A stretch of DNA of 64,000 nucleotides from a virus (IMGVR_UViG_3300027759_000080:1-64000); one strand, 5' to 3'; numbered from the stretch's first letter, positions 5,275 through 32,310 are shown. Notes: a model not told the origin generated them from the letters alone. Program-made: numbers and translations.

Positions 5275-8200
5275 ATGGCACAGGACACCACAATTAACTC
5301 TTTTGAGGGCGGCTTAAATAAAGACGTAGCCCTAGTATCTTTACCCTCTAATCAATATGACGAGGCTAATGATGTAGAATTTATATCTGATGAATTAGGT
5401 AAATTAACGACTTTAGAAGCTAAGAGAGGCACAGGACTAGCTAAGGTTACTGTTCCTAATGCTACTCCTCAAACAATTATGTTTAGAGTAAGGACATATG
5501 CTGATACTGCACAAATATTAGGACAATACTATACCAATCAAAAGTTTGAATTTAAAGATGCTAATGGAGTTGTAGTAACAGGAGGCACAATTACAATAAC
5601 AAACAGTAATCCTTATGTTACTAATTATGTTTTTGCATCAGACTTAACAACTGCTTTAGGTGGCAAGGGAACTGTTGCTGACAATGGTAATAATGATTTA
5701 TTATATACAACAATTACATTAACATCTTCTAGTTACAATTCAGTAGTTAGCTGTACTCAAACTGCAACTTTAAATGGAGTTGCCAACAACAAAATTAATG
5801 AACTTATTTTAATTAGAGAATTAATAACTACAGAAACTCAATTAGAGCCTATAGCTTATGTTAATAGTCAGAATCTAGGCTTTGTATTAAGTGTAAGCGA
5901 TGACAATACTATTACAGAAATTGGCGTAGCAGATGAAGATAACAACTGGGCTTACACAAGATTATTAAGAACAAAGAGCTTTGTAGTAAGTAAAACACAG
6001 CCTATTAAATTTATAGTAGAGCAGCAAAATGATGGAGTATATGCCCTGTACTTTACTGATAATACTATAAAAGATAAATGTATATATGTTCCACCTGTCT
6101 TAACTCAGGATTGCTGTTTAGCATATAGTCCTACAAATATTCAAGTAGCAGGAAAGGGAATATATAATTTAGTTCAAACAAACGCACAAACTAATAGTCA
6201 ATTAGTGAACAATATTGGATATGTCACTTATAAAAATACGCTACAAAGCGGTGGTGGCTTGCTTACAGGAGGAAAAAGATATGTGTGCAGGTTCGGGATA
6301 AATGGTTCTAATATAACTACTCAGTGGAGTATATTAAGCAATATTGTTCCTGTTATCTCTGCAAGTGCTGATAGTGGACTTGCATGGGTAAATACACAGG
6401 GAACACCTAACGGAATTCCTACAAGCAAACAAAATATATTAACAATTAACAATGCACAAGCAGATGTTTTTAATTTTGTAGAATTAGGGGTAGTAAATTA
6501 CGCAGGAGAAAACGCTACGTCTGGAGAATTGATAGGAAGGTTTGATGTATTGGCTGAAAGCTTTGATATTACACACACAGGATTAGAGCAAACAACATTA
6601 TTAGACGTTGTAAGCCTTATAGAGGCAGAGCCTGTCTTACTTAAGGTTAGGGATATTGAAACCAAGAAAAATAGATTAAATAGAGCTAATACTGTAACCG
6701 CTAACGAAGATGCTAAGTGGCAATCAATAGCTGAAAATGCAGTTGTTACTACTCAAAGGTTTTCAGACAGCCTAAGCAATACTGGTTTACTGCCTACATC
6801 AGGTGGCAATAGAAGATTTTATGGATACGGAGACAGCGTAGCAATGGGCATTATACCAAGTAGCGATACAAGAAATATAGAGAGAAAAATAGAATATGTC
6901 TCTCAAGTATCAGTTCCTCCGATAGTATCTCCACCTACTTATGTGTCAGGAGTTTATACTGTAACTGCTACTGATAGCCCTTTATTACAAATAAATTTAA
7001 CAGGTAAAGTAATAATAAAAACTAGCCCAACTATAATAAGTACATTTCCAGCTATTTGGGCTTACTATGACACAACTTCTATTGTTTCTTTTAAGATAAG
7101 AAGGATAAGAGCAGGAGTTACTACTGATGTTATAAATGATGTTATTGACACAAGGTTAAGCACTCACGAATTTTTTGCATCAACAGATTTAAATAAAACT
7201 TATAATATTGAAACAAATGCTGGAGATTATATAGAATTTTGGTGGGGCGTTTATATAGGTAGTAACGAGATTGATGTTGTAGATTTTTCATATATAAATA
7301 TTAATCAGGCGGCAACAGCTTCTTCTACTCAATTTTCAGGCACACAAGTAGGAGAATATCAAATTCCATATAACGTGGCAAACAGAGCTGGTTATATGCT
7401 ATATGAGTACTACCTAACATATGTTAGATTTCATTTAAAGAATGGATATATAACAGCACCTTACCCTTTAGGAAAGTATTACATAGACAATGCTACTTAT
7501 AAACGAGGATTAGTACAAATATTGCCATTAGACCCTACAATGCCATTTACAGATACAAGCACATTAGCTAGTAGAAAAGTATATAACTATGCTTTAAGCG
7601 TAGCTAATTTAGACCTTTTTTACGTTAAAGATGAATTATTAGGAGTAAGTTTTGAAAGAAGTGAGCCATTAAATACAGTTATTGGAAGTGGTATATACCA
7701 TAATGCAAGAGTAATAGATGGAGATGTTTATACTTCGGGGTATAATACTACAACAGGAGCTCCTTCAATTACTGATGCCAGAAGAAAGTTTGGTATATTT
7801 ATTAGTAACGATTTAGATAACCAAGTTATAAAGTATAGCAAAGGCGATTATTTACAATTACTAGGAGTTCCAAGAACATTAGGTTCTAATGCTAATTATA
7901 AAAGTGGCAATAATAACATAGGGCTTATAAAAGAATTATTAGGAAGTGTAGAAATTGGAGGAGATGCAATGATAGCTACTAAATGGGTTATTGAAGATAG
8001 TACAAGTGTAGACTTTAATTCGGTAGGAGATGTTATTTATAATACAACTGCAAATTTGTATTACAAACCTAGTACCAGCATATTAAATAATGCTTATTCT
8101 AATTCTAAAGGAGTGGCGGTTTCAACAACAGGGTTTGTAAGAACTTCGGGTGGTACTAAGGAGGAAATAAATACTTTCGTAGCGTTTTATATTAGACCTA

Positions 8201-9933: not shown

Positions 9934-10230
9934 ATGAGAGGCGATAATAACGAATCAATACTTTTAAATACTTTCCAGAGCGCATTTGGAGCACAAGCAG
10001 GTAACTTAAACCTTACAGGAACTTCTCCTTCAGGATTAGGCTCTTGGTCTTCTTTTCAAGTAATAAGCGATACAGCTACTATAGCATCTATCACTATGGA
10101 CGGAATTGTTAATACTTCTTGGAGTGGTTTCACATTGCCAGCAGGTATGATTGTTTACGGACAAATTACAAATATAACTCTTTCAACAGGTTATGTAAGA
10201 CTATACGGAACAAATCAAAACCCTCAATAA
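9934..10230 (+). CDS. small tail-associated protein
   Basis: This 98-residue protein is beta-rich with many Ser, Thr and Gly residues and no membrane segment. Its stop codon TAA overlaps the ATG of the next gene (TAATG), so translation of the two is coupled. It opens a tail-fibre cluster behind its own promoter. Probably a short tail-fibre or chaperone-like component. No family recognised. Confidence 0.6.
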   Translation: MRGDNNESILLNTFQSAFGAQAGNLNLTGTSPSGLGSWSSFQVISDTATIASITMDGIVNTSWSGFTLPAGMIVYGQITNITLSTGYVRLYGTNQNPQ

Positions 10231-11822
10231 TGTTAGGAATAGGATTAGGCATAAATAAATTAAGGTCATCAGGGCTCGCCAACTATCTCAAAGGAGCAAT
10301 GGTATGGGGCTTTAAATCCAAATTTAAGTGGAGTGACACCTCTACGGATATATGGGGATTTGCTAATCCTAATACTATAGACCCTGAAGCACAAGCAGTA
10401 TATGATAGAATTATTGCTGATGGTGGAGTGTCTAACTTGACTCGCCTAAATTATTTCGTAGTTGGTTTAAAAACTATTTACGGTTCACTTGCAAACGTGC
10501 CAGTGTGTTACGATGCTCATTGGATTGGTTACAAATTAGGTTCAGGAACAGGTGCAACAGCAGGACAAGCAGCAGCGAAATTATATTCACTTACAGTAGC
10601 AGGTGATGCAGTACAAGCAACAGCAGCAAGTCAGCCATTGTTATTGGCACATAATGGAGCAAGTAGTGATAATTATTGGTGGGGAAGTGGGGTTGCAGGA
10701 AATTATAATTCAACACCAAATGCAGCAGCTAATCAAATTACAGGTGATATTGAGATAATTGTAAAAGCTAATATTAACAACGATGCAACAAATCAGGCTT
10801 TTGTAGCAAAATACCTTTCATCAAGTCAATTCTTACTTAGAAAAAATTCATCAAACTTTATTCAGTTTATTGGTTCTAAAACATCAGGTGCAGAAGATAT
10901 AAACGGAACTTCAACAGCAACTATTTCAAGTGGTGTTAAATGGGTAAAAGTAACAAGGCAAGCTTCAAGTGGTAATATGTATTTTTATACCTCACCCGAT
11001 GGTGTTGCTTATACTCAATTAGGGTCAATGGTTTCTACAACATCAGGAAACTTAGTAAATGGAACAGACCCTATAAATGTGGGAGTTTTTAGTACAACGG
11101 GTAACCCGTATTTAGGGGGAATTTACAGACTTACAATAGCAAACTCAATCGGTGGCACACCTGTAGTAGACTTCAATCCTGCAACATACAACGCAAGTAC
11201 AAGTCAAACTGCTTGGACAAGTGCAACAGGTGAAGTTTGGACAATTAATACAGGAACAGCAACGACAGGGTATAAAGGTGTATTGGTTGATAGAACGATA
11301 GTAATGTACGATAGAACTGATGACAATTTATTAGCATCAAACAATGCAACATTAAATACAGTATTAGGTACAGACCATTCTTCAGTTTTAGTAGCTACAA
11401 GATACACAACAACAAACAATGAATTTTTAATTGAAGTGGGTGGTGATTATACTGATATAAATTCAACTCAATGGTGGTTAAGTGGTGGCTTACTTATTTT
11501 AATAAGAACTAATAAAGGAATAACTGCAGCAAATGCAAACACAACAAATAATTATGCACTTGCAAAATCATTTAGTTATGCAGATTCAGTAGTATTTGGT
11601 GGAACTTCAATACAATTAATTAATGCAAGTTCTAATAGTGGTTCTTATTGGAATAATACAACAAATAAACCAATACCAAATACAGGTTTATTATTAGGAA
11701 AATCGGCAGGTATTGGAAATTTTAACGGAATAATAAGCACAATAATAATTGGTAATGACCCTGCAAAATATTTACTTACTAAAGAATTAGCAAGAAGTTT
11801 AAACAATAATTTTGCACTATAA
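10230..11822 (+). CDS. tail fibre protein with concanavalin/LamG-like domain
   Basis: I place the start at the ATG at 10230, overlapping the previous stop codon, giving 530 residues. A longer in-frame ORF begins at 10119 but would run through the preceding gene. Residues about 110-300 show the strand pattern of a concanavalin-like lectin fold. It has motifs of the form WVKVTRQASSGNMYFYTSPDG, followed by a segment in which a strand, a Gly turn and a closing strand (GGIYRLTIANS) repeat. Such domains bind carbohydrate and fit a host-recognition fibre. The N-terminal 60 residues probably attach it to the tail. Function is inferred from fold-like features and context. Confidence 0.6.
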   Translation: MLGIGLGINKLRSSGLANYLKGAMVWGFKSKFKWSDTSTDIWGFANPNTIDPEAQAVYDRIIADGGVSNLTRLNYFVVGLKTIYGSLANVPVCYDAHWIGYKLGSGTGATAGQAAAKLYSLTVAGDAVQATAASQPLLLAHNGASSDNYWWGSGVAGNYNSTPNAAANQITGDIEIIVKANINNDATNQAFVAKYLSSSQFLLRKNSSNFIQFIGSKTSGAEDINGTSTATISSGVKWVKVTRQASSGNMYFYTSPDGVAYTQLGSMVSTTSGNLVNGTDPINVGVFSTTGNPYLGGIYRLTIANSIGGTPVVDFNPATYNASTSQTAWTSATGEVWTINTGTATTGYKGVLVDRTIVMYDRTDDNLLASNNATLNTVLGTDHSSVLVATRYTTTNNEFLIEVGGDYTDINSTQWWLSGGLLILIRTNKGITAANANTTNNYALAKSFSYADSVVFGGTSIQLINASSNSGSYWNNTTNKPIPNTGLLLGKSAGIGNFNGIISTIIIGNDPAKYLLTKELARSLNNNFAL

Positions 11823-25889: not shown

Positions 25890-26120
25890 TTAATTAATTT
25901 CTTCCTCAACTATGATATCATCAACGTAACAATTTACATTGTATTTGCCAATGTTTAAATGGTCAATGATAGCTTGAATTTGGGAGCAGTCGTCTTCTGC
26001 GCTCCATCCCTTGCCTAGAACAATTTCTGCTACATCCTCTAGATTGTTGCCATTCACGAATGCGTAAGTTGAAAAGTAATTACCTTCGATTGATTTTTTA
26101 ATTTGATTTTTTGATTTCAT
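25890..26120 (-). CDS. small acidic protein
   Basis: I use the ATG at 26120. The longer frame from 26180 runs through the T-arm-like element. The 76-residue protein starts MKSKNQIKKSIEGNYFSTYA and ends with acidic VDDIIVEEEIN. Its leader, between 26121 and 26175, contains the same CAATCAATCATTATG sequence as several neighbours. Confidence 0.6.
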   Translation of the reverse strand: MKSKNQIKKSIEGNYFSTYAFVNGNNLEDVAEIVLGKGWSAEDDCSQIQAIIDHLNIGKYNVNCYVDDIIVEEEIN

Positions 26121-26175: not shown

Positions 26176-26221
26176 AACATATGAGGGGAATCGAACCCCT
26201 CACTAGAACCATTTTTATGCT
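26176..26221 (-). ncRNA. tRNA-like minihelix element A (acceptor-like stem plus T-arm)
   Basis: On the minus strand, AGCATA (26221-26216) pairs with TATGTT (26081 region not involved; 26181-26176), five Watson-Crick pairs and one G-U. Directly inside, TGAGGGG (26202-26196) pairs with CCCCTCA (26188-26182) around the loop TTCGATT, the canonical tRNA T-loop. A 13-base linker AAAATGGTTCTAG takes the place of the D and anticodon arms and includes a TGG like the D-loop GG. The T-stem 3' strand runs straight into the outer-stem 3' strand, so the helices would stack as in tRNA. The outer stem includes the stop codon of the DUF932 gene. Folding is exact by hand. Function is inferred. Confidence 0.65.
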
Positions 26222-27122
26222 ATGCAAATGTGAATATTTTATTATCCACAGTATTCTCGGTAACAAACTTCATTACCTCATCGAATGCTATGTTATTCAT
26301 GCGATAACCACCACCACTAACTAGGTAATGTAACTTATCATTCTCATCCTTTGGCGCACTAACGTGGTTTGTGTAACGTGTAACGGCATTAAATAATCCC
26401 CATATAGTCTTACCTTCCAAATTAATTTCAGTTTGTAAGGAATCAGCAAAAGCGGTCACTTGATTTAGCTTTCTACTGCTTACATCTTTCTTATTAGTGT
26501 TAACATCAATAGTGAATAGTTTTCTTATCACACGTTCCACCATCTCATCCTTTAGCTCGATGTCAGCCATCTTCTTGAAGTTACCCATCAATACTTCATC
26601 TAGATGCAAAGCCTTTCTTAAATCAGCCATGGCAGTCTCAATTCTACTCTTTGCTGATTCAGTGTGACGGAACTTATCTAAATCTTTGTATGCACGATGG
26701 AAAGTATTTTTGCATACTACTACTTGACTAGTTGACCCGAATCCGATTGATGCACTGCCATCATTAGAATTCAAGGCAGTAATCCATCTCATGATAGATG
26801 ACTTCCCGATGTACATACTAGGTAAAGCGGCTTGTAAGTATACCTTCTTACCTCCATCTAGTTCACCTCCTCTAGTAGTCTCTAAACCGATGCCCTCGGT
26901 AGCTCCTACGATGGTTTCTGCTAACTCCCAATTCTGCATTGGCACATAACGATTACCTACACTTCCTAACCATGCATCAGTATCGTTTCTGAAGATACCA
27001 AATGTCTCGGTGTTTTTACCATCTTTAGCAAATAACTCTTCTTTGCTTACTGACCAATTTAAATTAGTGCTTTCTAATAAATTAAAAGTCTTTTCTTGGA
27101 TTGATTGATTGTTGTTTTTCAT
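26220..27122 (-). CDS. DUF932 protein
   Basis: This 300-residue protein matches the DUF932 phage/plasmid-like family. Visible segments are FGIFRNDTDAWLGSVGNRY, PMQNWELAETIV, GGELDGGKKVYLQAALP and GSTSQVVVCKNTFHRAY, which occur in the same order in that family, and the length is typical. These proteins are common on phages and plasmids and their role is unknown. The gene's stop codon lies in the outer stem of element A. It is probably co-transcribed with the small genes at either side. Confidence 0.85.
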   Translation of the reverse strand: MKNNNQSIQEKTFNLLESTNLNWSVSKEELFAKDGKNTETFGIFRNDTDAWLGSVGNRYVPMQNWELAETIVGATEGIGLETTRGGELDGGKKVYLQAALPSMYIGKSSIMRWITALNSNDGSASIGFGSTSQVVVCKNTFHRAYKDLDKFRHTESAKSRIETAMADLRKALHLDEVLMGNFKKMADIELKDEMVERVIRKLFTIDVNTNKKDVSSRKLNQVTAFADSLQTEINLEGKTIWGLFNAVTRYTNHVSAPKDENDKLHYLVSGGGYRMNNIAFDEVMKFVTENTVDNKIFTFA

Positions 27123-27196
27123 GATTTTTGTTATTTAATTGTTTAAGACAAGGCTTTTTAAACCTTGTTTCGATTATTTAAATCTCGTCAGTTAAA

Positions 27197-27358
27197 CTAT
27201 TGTACATTGTCTCGATAATAGTTAGCTATGCTTATTACTTCCAATGCTAACTGCTCGTTAGACATCTTTGCCAAGCTAACTACATCTTGTACTGTTTCGA
27301 ATTCGTCAGATGCCAAATCCATGATGGCATCAATTAATTTTTCTCTGATTGTTTCCAT
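27197..27358 (-). CDS. small acidic helical protein
   Basis: The 53-residue frame starts METIREKLIDAIMDLASDEF and is helical throughout. It is followed by a hairpin-containing spacer (ACAAGG...CCTTGT near 27148-27168) before the DUF932 gene. No family recognised. Confidence 0.6.
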   Translation of the reverse strand: METIREKLIDAIMDLASDEFETVQDVVSLAKMSNEQLALEVISIANYYRDNVQ

Positions 27359-27363
27359 GGTGT

Positions 27364-27651
27364 TTATATGCTTTTTAAATCTTTGTGATACTTATATAAA
27401 ATTGCTTCGCTTGAATCGTAGCTAAGATGTGTGGCATCCTTATTTATCCTATCTCTTGATGATGGATAGTCATCTTCTCTTTTAATGCTTCTAATAGCAT
27501 TACGCATATCCTTTTTTGCATCTGCTACACTGCTATAATTTAGCCAAATGCAATTGAACATCCCATCCTTTTTACTTTCGTAATTTGACATCTTTGATAG
27601 TATCTTGAAGTTACCACCGATTTGACCCGTAATTAAAATTTGTGCTCTCAT
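27364..27651 (-). CDS. hypothetical protein
   Basis: This 95-residue basic protein begins with a beta segment (MRAQILITGQIGGNFKILSK) and has a helical middle with DAKKDMRNAIRSIKRED. A small alpha/beta fold. No family recognised. Confidence 0.6.
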   Translation of the reverse strand: MRAQILITGQIGGNFKILSKMSNYESKKDGMFNCIWLNYSSVADAKKDMRNAIRSIKREDDYPSSRDRINKDATHLSYDSSEAILYKYHKDLKSI

Positions 27652-27654
27652 GAT

Positions 27655-27819
27655 TTAATTGTCTCCTATTTTAATAATTGAATAATAACCATCAATGAAT
27701 TCATTGTTACATGAATCGAATTGATAGTACTCTTGTACTCTTGCTTGTGCCAATTCCAATGTAGGAAATGCGCTGATAATACTGCCATTTGCAGTGTTTT
27801 GAATGATGTAATTTGTCAT
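27655..27819 (-). CDS. small hypothetical protein
   Basis: The frame codes for 54 residues: MTNYIIQNTANGSIISAFPT, then LELAQARVQEYYQF and a C-terminal strand SIIKIGDN. It starts one base before the end of the upstream gene. A small alpha/beta fold like other early-block proteins. Function unknown. Confidence 0.6.
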   Translation of the reverse strand: MTNYIIQNTANGSIISAFPTLELAQARVQEYYQFDSCNNEFIDGYYSIIKIGDN

Positions 27820-27820
27820 G

Positions 27821-28150
27821 CTATTTAATTGATTTTTTAGGTTTGATAAAATATGCTCCGTTTGGACTGTAGACTTCGTAATTCATAGCATCTGCTATTC
27901 TAGTTAAATCTAGCAGTCTCTGAGCAATCTGCTGAGGAAGAAATGAGTACTTCGTACCTACATTCCACTGCTCTTTTTTACTGCTCTGCTCCTCTAGGCA
28001 TTTGTACTTATTGAATTGCCATTCCAATTCACATTTTAATTCTCTAGCATTCTCGCAGTCATTTATTATACGTTCTGCAAACTTTGTTGATGCCAATGAT
28101 GGACTGTTTTTTAATCTTAAGAAAGATTCCTTTTGAGTGATTGTTTTCAT
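27821..28150 (-). CDS. hypothetical protein, paralogue of the 29118 gene
   Basis: This 109-residue basic protein has the pattern DCENARELKCELEWQFNKY and later DLTRIADAMNYEVY followed by YFIKPKK. The gene at 29118-29441 shows DCETLRDIKQTICWELNFA, then RLRDACYYVANKLGYKV, in the same spacing. They are probably tandem paralogues. The leader again carries a CAATCAATCAACATG-like start context. Confidence 0.65.
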   Translation of the reverse strand: MKTITQKESFLRLKNSPSLASTKFAERIINDCENARELKCELEWQFNKYKCLEEQSSKKEQWNVGTKYSFLPQQIAQRLLDLTRIADAMNYEVYSPNGAYFIKPKKSIK

Positions 28151-28188
28151 GTTGATTGATTGTTTTTTTTAGTGATTAATTAATTGAT

Positions 28189-28476
28189 TTATTGTGAGCA
28201 CAAGTCCCATGACTCTAGCTCGTTTACTCTTTTAACATTTAAGCCTAATTCCTTATAAATAAAATTAGCTAATTTAGTATTACCTACAGTGCCTTCAGCT
28301 ATCTGATTTGTGCCTATAGATGCTACAACGTCTGAAGTGCTCATGCCTAATATTCTACTGCAAAATTTAACATCTTGCCCTAAGAAGAATTGTTTGACAT
28401 ATTTTTTGTTTCTGACTACTAATGACCAATTATGACAAAAGCCATATTCCGTTGTGATTAAGATTGTTTTCTTCAT
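28189..28476 (-). CDS. hypothetical protein
   Basis: This 95-residue protein begins MKKTILITTEYGFCHNWSLV and has a central helix (FCSRILGMSTSDVVASIGTN) reminiscent of a helix-turn-helix. It follows element B by 24 bases. DNA binding is possible but unproven. Confidence 0.55.
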   Translation of the reverse strand: MKKTILITTEYGFCHNWSLVVRNKKYVKQFFLGQDVKFCSRILGMSTSDVVASIGTNQIAEGTVGNTKLANFIYKELGLNVKRVNELESWDLCSQ

Positions 28477-28500
28477 GATATTTATTTATTTAATTGTTTG

Positions 28501-28544
28501 AGCATAGCATGGGAATCGAACCCATGCCTTGAACCATTTATGCT
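28501..28544 (-). ncRNA. tRNA-like minihelix element B (acceptor-like stem plus T-arm)
   Basis: On the minus strand, AGCATA (28544-28539) pairs perfectly with TATGCT (28506-28501). Inside, GCATGGG (28527-28521) pairs with CCCATGC (28513-28507) around loop TTCGATT. The linker is AATGGTTCAAG, 11 bases, similar to that of element A (AAAATGGTTCTAG). Compared with A, most T-stem base pairs differ while pairing remains intact, which indicates selection on structure. The outer stem overlaps the stop codon of the upstream gene, and the next gene starts 24 bases after the element. Confidence 0.7.
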
Positions 28545-28954
28545 AGTGTTTGCTTATTCTTTACTTCTATTATAAACTGCGAATTAACATAAGAGACGTG
28601 CTCTTTTATGATTTTAGGAAGATGTTTGATATCGAATTCTTGATAGTTGTGAAAATTACCTTCGTAATTGCCATCACAAGCAGTAATTACACCATAATTA
28701 TTTAGCACTCTAAACGATTTTATATGTCTATAGCTTTGATAATTGCCATAGTCACTAGTATTAACGCATATGGTAATATCCTTGAATTTCTTTTTAGATA
28801 CTTTCACTGCATTCTTAAACGATTCTAGTATGTCATCTGCATCTATCAGATAACTGCTAGTTGTGAATAGCATATCAACTATTCTGACTACTGAAGTAGT
28901 GTTTCTATCAATCTCAGATTCGATTTCGATAGTAATTTTGATTGTTTTTTCCAT
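28538..28954 (-). CDS. hypothetical protein
   Basis: This 138-residue protein has a strand-rich first part (EKTIKITIEIESEIDRNTT) and a helix with DDILESFKNAVKVSKKKFKD. It has no recognisable catalytic residues. Its stop codon lies in the outer stem of element B. Confidence 0.55.
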   Translation of the reverse strand: MEKTIKITIEIESEIDRNTTSVVRIVDMLFTTSSYLIDADDILESFKNAVKVSKKKFKDITICVNTSDYGNYQSYRHIKSFRVLNNYGVITACDGNYEGNFHNYQEFDIKHLPKIIKEHVSYVNSQFIIEVKNKQTLA

Positions 28955-30928: not shown

Positions 30929-31612
30929 CTAGTGAGCGTACTTGTATATAGACTTCAACGATAGCGATATGCCGTTCTCTAGCAGCCTCCTTTGTATCTC
31001 TGCCTTTGGAACATTATTCTGGCTGTACGCTTTGATTAGTTCTATACCTACGTTTGACTTCTTGACGTACACTCTTTTCTTGGCTATCTCTGCCATTAGT
31101 ATTTTAGCTTTATTTGGGTCTTGCATTTCAGGATTGCCTAGCGAGCTGATTATGCGTCCGTTCTTTGTTACATGGAATCCGTTCTTCTGTATACGAACCT
31201 TGATTGAGTTTAGTCCTGCTGCTGTTCTCTCTGATATCATTACTCTCTCTCTTTCTGCCATAGAGCCGAACAGGTGGATTGAGAAGTTGTCCATCTCTGG
31301 TGCATCAGCACACTTGAATTGTACCTTACTATCCATTAGGTTTGCTATGAAACTAATGCTACGAGACAGTCTATCTAACTTTGCCACGAGTAGTATTGCC
31401 TTCTTCTCCTTGCACAAATTTATTGCCTCTCTTAATTTAGGTCTATCGCTCTTCTTTCCTGACTCAATTTCAGTAAATGTTGCTACTACTATCCCCTTGT
31501 TTGTGATTGGTAATACCATTTGTTCTTGTGCCTCTAGTCCTAGTCCGCTATTGGCTTGCTTGTCTGTTGATACCCTGAAGTATGTGACGTAATTGTTGGT
31601 AGTTGTACTCAT
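30929..31612 (-). CDS. serine recombinase (resolvase/invertase family)
   Basis: This 227-residue protein has the catalytic N-terminal domain of serine recombinases: YFRVSTDKQ with the nucleophile Ser at 15, then ELEAQ-like GLGLEAQEQ, IESGKKSDRPKL, KLDRLSRS (Arg cluster) and a helix with MAERERVMISERTAAGL. A C-terminal KAEIQRRLLENGISLSLKSIYKY segment is helix-turn-helix-like. I place the start at the ATG at 31612, where the upstream gene's TGA is followed by AAATG (TGAAAATG). Size is that of resolvases/invertases, smaller than large serine integrases. A role in genome dimer resolution, inversion or integration is possible. No site was proven. Confidence 0.85.
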   Translation of the reverse strand: MSTTTNNYVTYFRVSTDKQANSGLGLEAQEQMVLPITNKGIVVATFTEIESGKKSDRPKLREAINLCKEKKAILLVAKLDRLSRSISFIANLMDSKVQFKCADAPEMDNFSIHLFGSMAERERVMISERTAAGLNSIKVRIQKNGFHVTKNGRIISSLGNPEMQDPNKAKILMAEIAKKRVYVKKSNVGIELIKAYSQNNVPKAEIQRRLLENGISLSLKSIYKYAH

Positions 31613-31614
31613 TT

Positions 31615-32310
31615 TCAGTTCCATTTTTGATTATACATTTTTCTCATATTCTCAAGCAGTTGCTCTTGGGTTTTTATGTACCCCATATCTATAGCGAATG
31701 CAAGCTTACCTTCTATTGTCTTCAACTCTTCCAATTGTTTAGCAGTAGCTAAGTTTCTTAAACCTGTTTCGTGTTTGTTAAATACTATCCAATTAAGTCC
31801 TTTTGCTATTGATATATAATCAGGATTGTTAAATCTAGTTATCGCCTTTGACAGGTCTCTGTAAAAATTACCTGCCTCAATCCTGTTTATAATTAGCGAG
31901 TCTGTCAACCATCCTATAACCTCTGCCTTAAATATAGGATTTAAGTCCATGGCTACCATAACAAAGATGTACGGATTTACCCATACTGCTCTTGTATCTC
32001 TAGCTCCAGTTGTCTTATAAACTCCTAGTGTCTTCATGTACTTTGCAAAGCCCTGTTTTTCAATGTTCTCTATAAAACTACACATAGGTATTTTTATAAC
32101 GCCTTGCTTCTCAAGTAAGTAATAAAGAACTTCTATATTGTCTGTCATTATCCTTGCTACATTCTTTTCTACCCAGCCGTTTTTTACCCTAGATACTGTG
32201 TAGGCTTCTTGAAGGTCTGACAAACTAAGAAAACCTTTTTGAGTTTGCTGCCTGATTTTAGTTCCGAATAGATTTCTATCTTCCGAAATGATTATTATGT
32301 TTGACTTCAT
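31615..32310 (-). CDS. KilA-N-like DNA-binding protein
   Basis: I use the ATG at 32310, which lies 5 bases after the -7 motif and so forms a leaderless start. The 231-residue product starts MKSNIIIISEDRNLFGTKIR. It contains a KilA-N-like segment VWVNPYIFVMVAMDLNPIFKAEVIGWLTD near residues 107-135 (Trp-Val-Asn-Pro...Met-Asp...Trp-Leu). The C-terminus is basic and helical. KilA-N proteins of phages and large DNA viruses bind DNA and regulate or inhibit cell growth. Its stop codon and the recombinase start form the TGA-AA-ATG junction, so the two are co-expressed. Confidence 0.6.
   Translation of the reverse strand: MKSNIIIISEDRNLFGTKIRQQTQKGFLSLSDLQEAYTVSRVKNGWVEKNVARIMTDNIEVLYYLLEKQGVIKIPMCSFIENIEKQGFAKYMKTLGVYKTTGARDTRAVWVNPYIFVMVAMDLNPIFKAEVIGWLTDSLIINRIEAGNFYRDLSKAITRFNNPDYISIAKGLNWIVFNKHETGLRNLATAKQLEELKTIEGKLAFAIDMGYIKTQEQLLENMRKMYNQKWN

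Follow-up and report, generated by a model that had tools for sequence, protein, structure and literature searches.

Between mitochondrial genes, tRNAs that punctuate the transcript, and the t-elements of plant mitochondria, are tRNA or tRNA-like folds that mark where tRNA-end nucleases cut. The early region of phage T7 carries structured RNase III sites between its genes, at which the polycistronic mRNA is cut, and the tRNA-like domain of tmRNA combines an acceptor stem, a T-arm and a stem-less D-loop with no anticodon. RNase P cleaves model substrates that consist of acceptor stem, T-stem and T-loop, and processes the phage RNAs M3 and C4 (PMC11143913). RNase P, RNase Z and CCA-adding enzymes gauge the size of a tRNA from the elbow along the acceptor/T stack, CCA is an antideterminant for RNase Z, and the tRNA-like folds of MALAT1 mascRNA and of the 3′ ends of plant-virus RNAs are substrates of tRNA-end enzymes within long or viral RNAs (PMC4919913). 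On a non-tRNA substrate, E. coli RNase P RNA required a 3′ RCC motif (PMC12710915).

The window analysed here, a stretch of 64,000 nucleotides from a virus record of 67,873 bases, contains two elements, A and B, with the same minimal acceptor/T-arm fold as the RNase P model substrates. They differ from the model substrates in being natural and repeated, in carrying a D-loop-like linker and, for most copies of the family, in lacking RCC. Whereas mitochondrial punctuation relies mostly on real organelle tRNAs, the phage elements are anticodon-less and have their own stem sequence in each gap, and their cutting is predicted. Likewise, mascRNA and the plant-virus structures occupy the 3′ end of one RNA, whereas the elements are internal and number up to 13 per phage. 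The resemblance to tmRNA is reflected in weak Rfam tmRNA matches near some elements that lie far under the gathering score; tmRNA (RF00023) was rejected as an identity, as its best match reached 22.7 bits against a cut-off of 47, and the elements lack an mRNA-like tag region, a long linking helix and a conserved CCA. The T7 sites, in contrast, are RNase III hairpins and not tRNA-like, and model R2 has no match in the T7 genome.

Elements A and B and their genes

Both elements lie on the minus strand, each between co-directional genes, and are arranged as follows.

26220–27122, minus strand: gene upstream of element A, DUF932 protein of 300 aa (PF06067, E 8e-30)
26222–26220, minus strand: stop codon TAG of the DUF932 gene, overlapping the first outer-stem bases of element A
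26176–26221, minus strand: element A
26221–26216/26181–26176, minus strand: outer stem of element A, AGCATA with TATGTT
26215–26203, minus strand: linker of element A, AAAATGGTTCTAG, 13 nt
26202–26196/26188–26182, minus strand: T-stem of element A, TGAGGGG with CCCCTCA
26195–26189, minus strand: T-loop of element A, TTCGATT
26175–26173, minus strand: CAA directly 3′ of element A
25890–26120, minus strand: gene downstream of element A
28538–28954, minus strand: gene upstream of element B, 138 aa, no family match
28540–28538, minus strand: stop codon TAA of the 138-aa gene, within the outer-stem 5′ strand and the first linker base of element B
28501–28544, minus strand: element B
28544–28539/28506–28501, minus strand: outer stem of element B, AGCATA with TATGCT
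28538–28528, minus strand: linker of element B, AATGGTTCAAG, 11 nt
28527–28521/28513–28507, minus strand: T-stem of element B, GCATGGG with CCCATGC
28520–28514, minus strand: T-loop of element B, TTCGATT
28500–28498, minus strand: CAA directly 3′ of element B
28189–28476, minus strand: gene downstream of element B, 95 aa, no family match

On re-reading of the sequence, the coordinates, loops, stems, linker lengths and stop-codon overlaps given for both elements in the preliminary description proved correct. The T-stem hairpin is stable by itself. Element A has a weak outer stem, with one G-U pair, mostly A-U pairs and a 13-nt interruption, and this stem is not part of the minimum-energy structure when the element is folded alone; it is accepted because of comparative support, being kept in the relatives L032 and L108. 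Homologous copies of element B occur in L022 and L108. Both window copies are without a downstream hairpin.

A mechanical call places the start of the gene downstream of element A at 26180, inside the element; the start at 26120 was judged from the sequence and from L108. The 95-aa gene begins 24 nt past the outer stem of element B. The order of a DUF932 gene and then an element is found in the window (26220–27122), in Microbacterium phage Appa (NC_047972.1, 30821–31873), and in L032, L074 and L108. A gene for a serine resolvase/invertase (30929–31624) adjoins the minus-strand block that holds the elements, and the genes nearby suggest the designation of this block as early. The host of the virus is probably a member of the Bacteroidota, because the terminase encoded in the window is distant kin of the terminases of Flavobacterium, Cellulophaga and Maribacter phages.

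ARAGORN found 0 tRNAs in the window, and none of the 4227 families of Rfam 15 reached its gathering score there. RF00005 gave no match to the elements of the window or of the 16 loci scanned, in which the sole gathering-score match of Rfam 15 was a true tRNA elsewhere in L117. A tRNA gene was therefore rejected as an identity, since neither ARAGORN nor RF00005 recognises an anticodon arm or cloverleaf in the window elements, and so was an intrinsic terminator, the sequence past the stack being A-rich and without a T run. On one phage contig, a true tRNA gene is situated between two elements (L117, 1927–1998).

A covarying RNA family in phages

Elements A and B are real members of a large covarying RNA family. 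A DNA similarity search of a phage collection with the window and with the L164 and L042 operons gave no matches, so the family is reached by pattern and covariance model. A scan of IMG/VR with the pattern ATGGTTC-N6..10-GGTTCGANTCC, whose T-arm consensus GGTTCGANTCC is that of tRNAs, returned at least 119 stretches. Among the matches listed, 78 of 103 distinct sequences were element-like, with an outer stem of at least 5 bp, and 3 of 103 were tRNAs according to ARAGORN; the control pattern with a permuted linker gave 42 distinct matches, comprising 13 tRNAs and 2 element-like sequences. A second linker variant, GAACGGTT, was element-like in 58 of its 72 distinct matches. Again among the matches listed, an outer stem of at least 5 bp was present in 80 of 105 cases, against about 11 of 105 after the 3′ partners had been redealt.

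The pairing is held in 97% of the pair cells of 21 seed sequences and, over 101 distinct copies, in 96% of 1260 cells; changes on both sides of the pair occur in 482 cells. The covariation score of the 101 copies is 0.914 compared to 0.172 after shuffling, and controls slid along the sequence are about 50% paired. The covariance model R3, which was built leaving out the window and its near kin, detects element B with 64.1 bits (E 9e-15) and element A with 53.1 bits (E 8e-12), the next-best match in the 64-kb window scoring 14.5 bits. Two sets of copies were picked up by the model independently of the seed pattern: 12 from genomes of the Dysgonomonas family, which are 93% paired with a covariation score of 0.889 against 0.210, and 29 distinct ones from mycobacteriophages, which are 92.6% paired with 0.704 against 0.147. 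Chance or artefact is ruled out by the leave-out model R3 together with the permuted-linker control, and DNA-level repeats or recombination sites by stems that vary among copies yet remain complementary. The proposed architecture of an acceptor-like stem and a T-arm, with a linker substituting for the D arm and the anticodon arm, is thus strongly supported by covariation as conserved RNA structure, and covarying homologues, the lack of which would have spoken against it, were looked for and found in quantity.

The elements display what defines a tRNA-like structure, namely an acceptor-like stem on a T-arm, a tRNA T-loop and covariation. An acceptor-like stem of 5–7 bp and a T-stem of 5–8 bp form a stack of 11–13 bp in total, the 3′ strand of which is continuous apart from a single bulge at most, much like that of tRNA. 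TTCGATT forms the T-loop of 86 of 104 copies and TTCRANT that of the others, and GG is invariant in the linker, including 25 of 25 copies without ATGGTTC; the searches that yielded all copies, by pattern or profile, were themselves biased towards GG and the T-loop. On the 5′ side, the linker mostly measures 9–12 nt, and some linkers, such as GTTTGGAATTT in L020 and ACTGGCAGAG in phage Predator, look like tRNA D-loops; their D-loop-like GG could mimic G18G19 at the elbow with the T-loop. On the 3′ side of the stack, a single base (usually A or T) is left unpaired, and the next base is C in 66–75% of copies. CAA, CTA and CGA are common at this place, CCA is rare (5 of 95 copies), and an RCC tail is absent from most copies. 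At position +1, G is the commonest base (53%). In one class, the base 5′ of the stem and the discriminator-like base form a pair (68 of 101 cells), which is mostly not formed in the Dysgonomonas-family (10 of 12 unpaired) and mycobacteriophage (23 of 27 unpaired) copies.

In mycobacteriophage Cuke (NC_048696.1), three gaps (locus L358, locus positions 6528–6724, 9975–10095 and 10871–10970) contain larger family members, whose GG linker and T-arm are separated by an additional arm. They resemble intermediates from a tRNA to the minimal element, and one of them ends in ACCA. Two further Cuke gaps hold forms that read as diverged.

Among cultured mycobacteriophages, Predator, Konstantine, Damien, Cuke, Fowlmouth, MrMiyagi and Indlulamithi have 7–13 matches per genome, most with E <1e-3 and all on one strand; M. 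smegmatis mc2 155 is a culture host of phages that have copies. Phage Appa has a single copy, behind its DUF932 gene, in a stretch shared by eight near-identical relatives. In the Dysgonomonas family, 7 of 61 genomes have matches with E <=1e-6, one to three each, and a Methylococcaceae MAG has one strong match. The named hosts belong to the Bacteroidota, the Actinomycetota (Mycobacterium, Microbacterium, Amycolatopsis) and the Bacillota (Lachnospiraceae). The family is mainly a phage family, because a strict pattern returned 18 stretches only from bacterial and archaeal genomes totalling 257 billion bases. The genomes of T4, T7, lambda, P1, Mu, crAss001 and phi14:2 are without a full copy, phi14:2 having one weak match to the T-arm alone. 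The matches in Maribacter phage Panino and the crAss-like phage cr3_1 are true tRNAs and were discarded. In 16 phage records, no phage-encoded CCA-adding enzyme was found.

No description of the family was found in the open-access literature; it may be listed there, at least in part, as an unexplained motif, for example among the thousands of structured-RNA candidates of PMC8040213. tRNA-like processing signals are already known, and it is the anticodon-less version, repeated between the genes of tailed phages, that appears new.

Placement between genes and the second hairpin

The elements are closely fitted to gene boundaries, ORFs of at least 50 codons being counted. An ORF stop is found within −25 to +6 of the element 5′ end in 86 of 104 copies, compared to 8.4% of random positions, and in 100 of 116 copies another such ORF begins no more than 120 nt past the element. 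The upstream stop ends before the element 3′ end in 107 of 108 cases. In 29 to 30 cases it touches or falls within the outer-stem 5′ strand, and in 30 of the 108 (28%) it coincides with the predicted 5′ cut or extends past it. In L164, a contig of a Lachnospiraceae MAG, about ten copies separate successive genes within 7 kb in the order stop, element, short hairpin, GGAG and ATG, and in Cuke most gaps of 80–120 nt contain one element. The flanking ORFs are mostly unrelated (n = 173; the largest cluster, of 5, is DUF932). Named neighbours are DUF932, ArdC anti-restriction, SprT-like and ParB-like proteins, and in Appa a DnaB/SSB/Mom block. A cis-regulator of one gene family was rejected on these grounds, DUF932 being present in five loci only.

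A second hairpin of at least 5 bp is present in the 40 nt past the element in 42% of copies, against 10% of shuffled sequences, and in the mycobacteriophages in 28 of 28 copies tested, against 14%. Its stem sequence varies among copies, and it may be a separate RNA motif. Among the mycobacteriophage hairpins (L357, L358 and L360–L362), several in Cuke share a loop like GATCCCC.

Some annotated gene starts fall inside or upstream of an element, namely those of Cuke gp043 and gp044 (L358, 4430 and 4662) and Predator gp49 (L357, 5669), and probably also that of Cuke gp052 (L358, 8065). These four annotated starts are probably wrong, the true starts being situated past the element.

Predicted processing by tRNA-end nucleases

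On balance, anatomy and placement slightly favour a role of the elements as cis-acting, tRNA-like punctuation of polycistronic phage mRNA that is cut by host tRNA-end-processing endonucleases. The fold would offer these enzymes a tRNA elbow and an acceptor end, and the transcript would be cut beside the element, the likeliest site being 3′ of it, immediately past the discriminator-like base, by RNase Z or an equivalent enzyme; a cut on the 5′ side by RNase P may occur in addition. The upstream mRNA would thereby gain a compact tRNA-like 3′ end and the downstream mRNA a short hairpin at or near its 5′ end, so that the genes of one early transcript would become separate units with lifetimes of their own. 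The predicted role fits the placement between genes and the presence of the downstream hairpin; the lack of this hairpin in both window copies, and a stack that does not keep strictly to 12 bp, speak against it.

A 3′ cut is favoured over a 5′ cut because CCA is rare and RNase P RNA needs RCC on a non-tRNA substrate, because a 5′ cut would harm the upstream stop in 28% of copies where a 3′ cut would spare it in 107 of 108, and because the second hairpin would then be close to the 5′ end that the cut creates on the mRNA downstream. Judged on anatomy alone, the elements have the features of an RNase Z substrate: an acceptor/T-arm, a 3′ trailer and only rarely the CCA antideterminant. An RNase P substrate is expected to combine a stack of about 12 bp with N73 and RCC(A); the stack of the elements ranges from 11 to 13 bp and most copies have C next to the unpaired base, but the tail is mostly missing. 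The elements would accordingly suit an RNase Z-type 3′ cut better than RNase P. The suggestion of the preliminary description that they are processing signals is thus retained in modified form, RNase P as the cutter being weakened by the absence of RCC from most copies and by the stops at or beyond the predicted 5′ cut.

Were the functional event strictly a 5′ cut by RNase P at the acceptor end, as first proposed, the elements would join a known class of acceptor/T-stem/T-loop substrates with natural phage representatives in M3 and C4 (PMC11143913), the enzyme reads elbow and stack (PMC4919913), and the prevalence of G at +1 would be in keeping with it. The lack of RCC in most copies, the overlap of the stop codon with the predicted cut in over a quarter of them, and the frequent pairing of N-1 with the discriminator position in one class argue to the contrary, and we regard this account as very unlikely. 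Degenerate tRNA genes, tRNA-derived att sites or chance T-arm hairpins might be suspected from the T-arm consensus shared with tRNAs and from the three extra-arm forms of Cuke; this origin is refuted by covariation, with compensatory changes at nearly every pair in unrelated phages, and is hardly credible given several differing copies per genome and the permuted-linker control.

An action in trans is also conceivable, in which excised RNAs of about 45–50 nt would bind host factors such as EF-Tu, tRNA-maturation or tRNA-modifying enzymes, or stress or defence proteins, and alter host metabolism, the position in gaps being their mode of expression. A mimic read by its shape would keep the T-loop, the elbow GG and the acceptor-like end while leaving the stems free to vary, as is seen here, and many copies per genome would increase the dose. 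Such a mimic would, however, not need the tight placement from stop to next start, one element per gap, or the attached hairpin; without an anticodon arm it could not be a decoy for anticodon nucleases, and most copies do not encode CCA. This function is unlikely. Alternatively, the elements could remain uncut and serve in cis, the stable fold past the stop blocking 3′ exonucleases or separating the translation of neighbouring genes. The location directly after the stop codon in most copies and the autonomous stability of the T-stem hairpin agree with this explanation, but a plain hairpin would suffice, and it would leave unexplained why the T-loop hardly varies, why the linker has GG, why an unpaired base and C come next and why a second hairpin is added, which makes this explanation quite unlikely.

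Beyond the window, we tentatively propose that this anticodon-less tRNA-like class, found in phages of several phyla and missing from Rfam, is a general punctuation by which tailed phages would let host tRNA maturation cut early mRNAs into single-gene units with tRNA-like 3′ ends and hairpin 5′ ends. Although common in phages, this family of RNAs lacks annotation even in the long-published genomes of Predator and Konstantine. If the elements do mark cuts, phages would set mRNA boundaries through indispensable tRNA-processing enzymes of the cell, in parallel to the use of RNase III sites by T7. The origin of separate mRNAs from dense operons of small phage genes would then be explained, and phage annotation would gain a new boundary mark.
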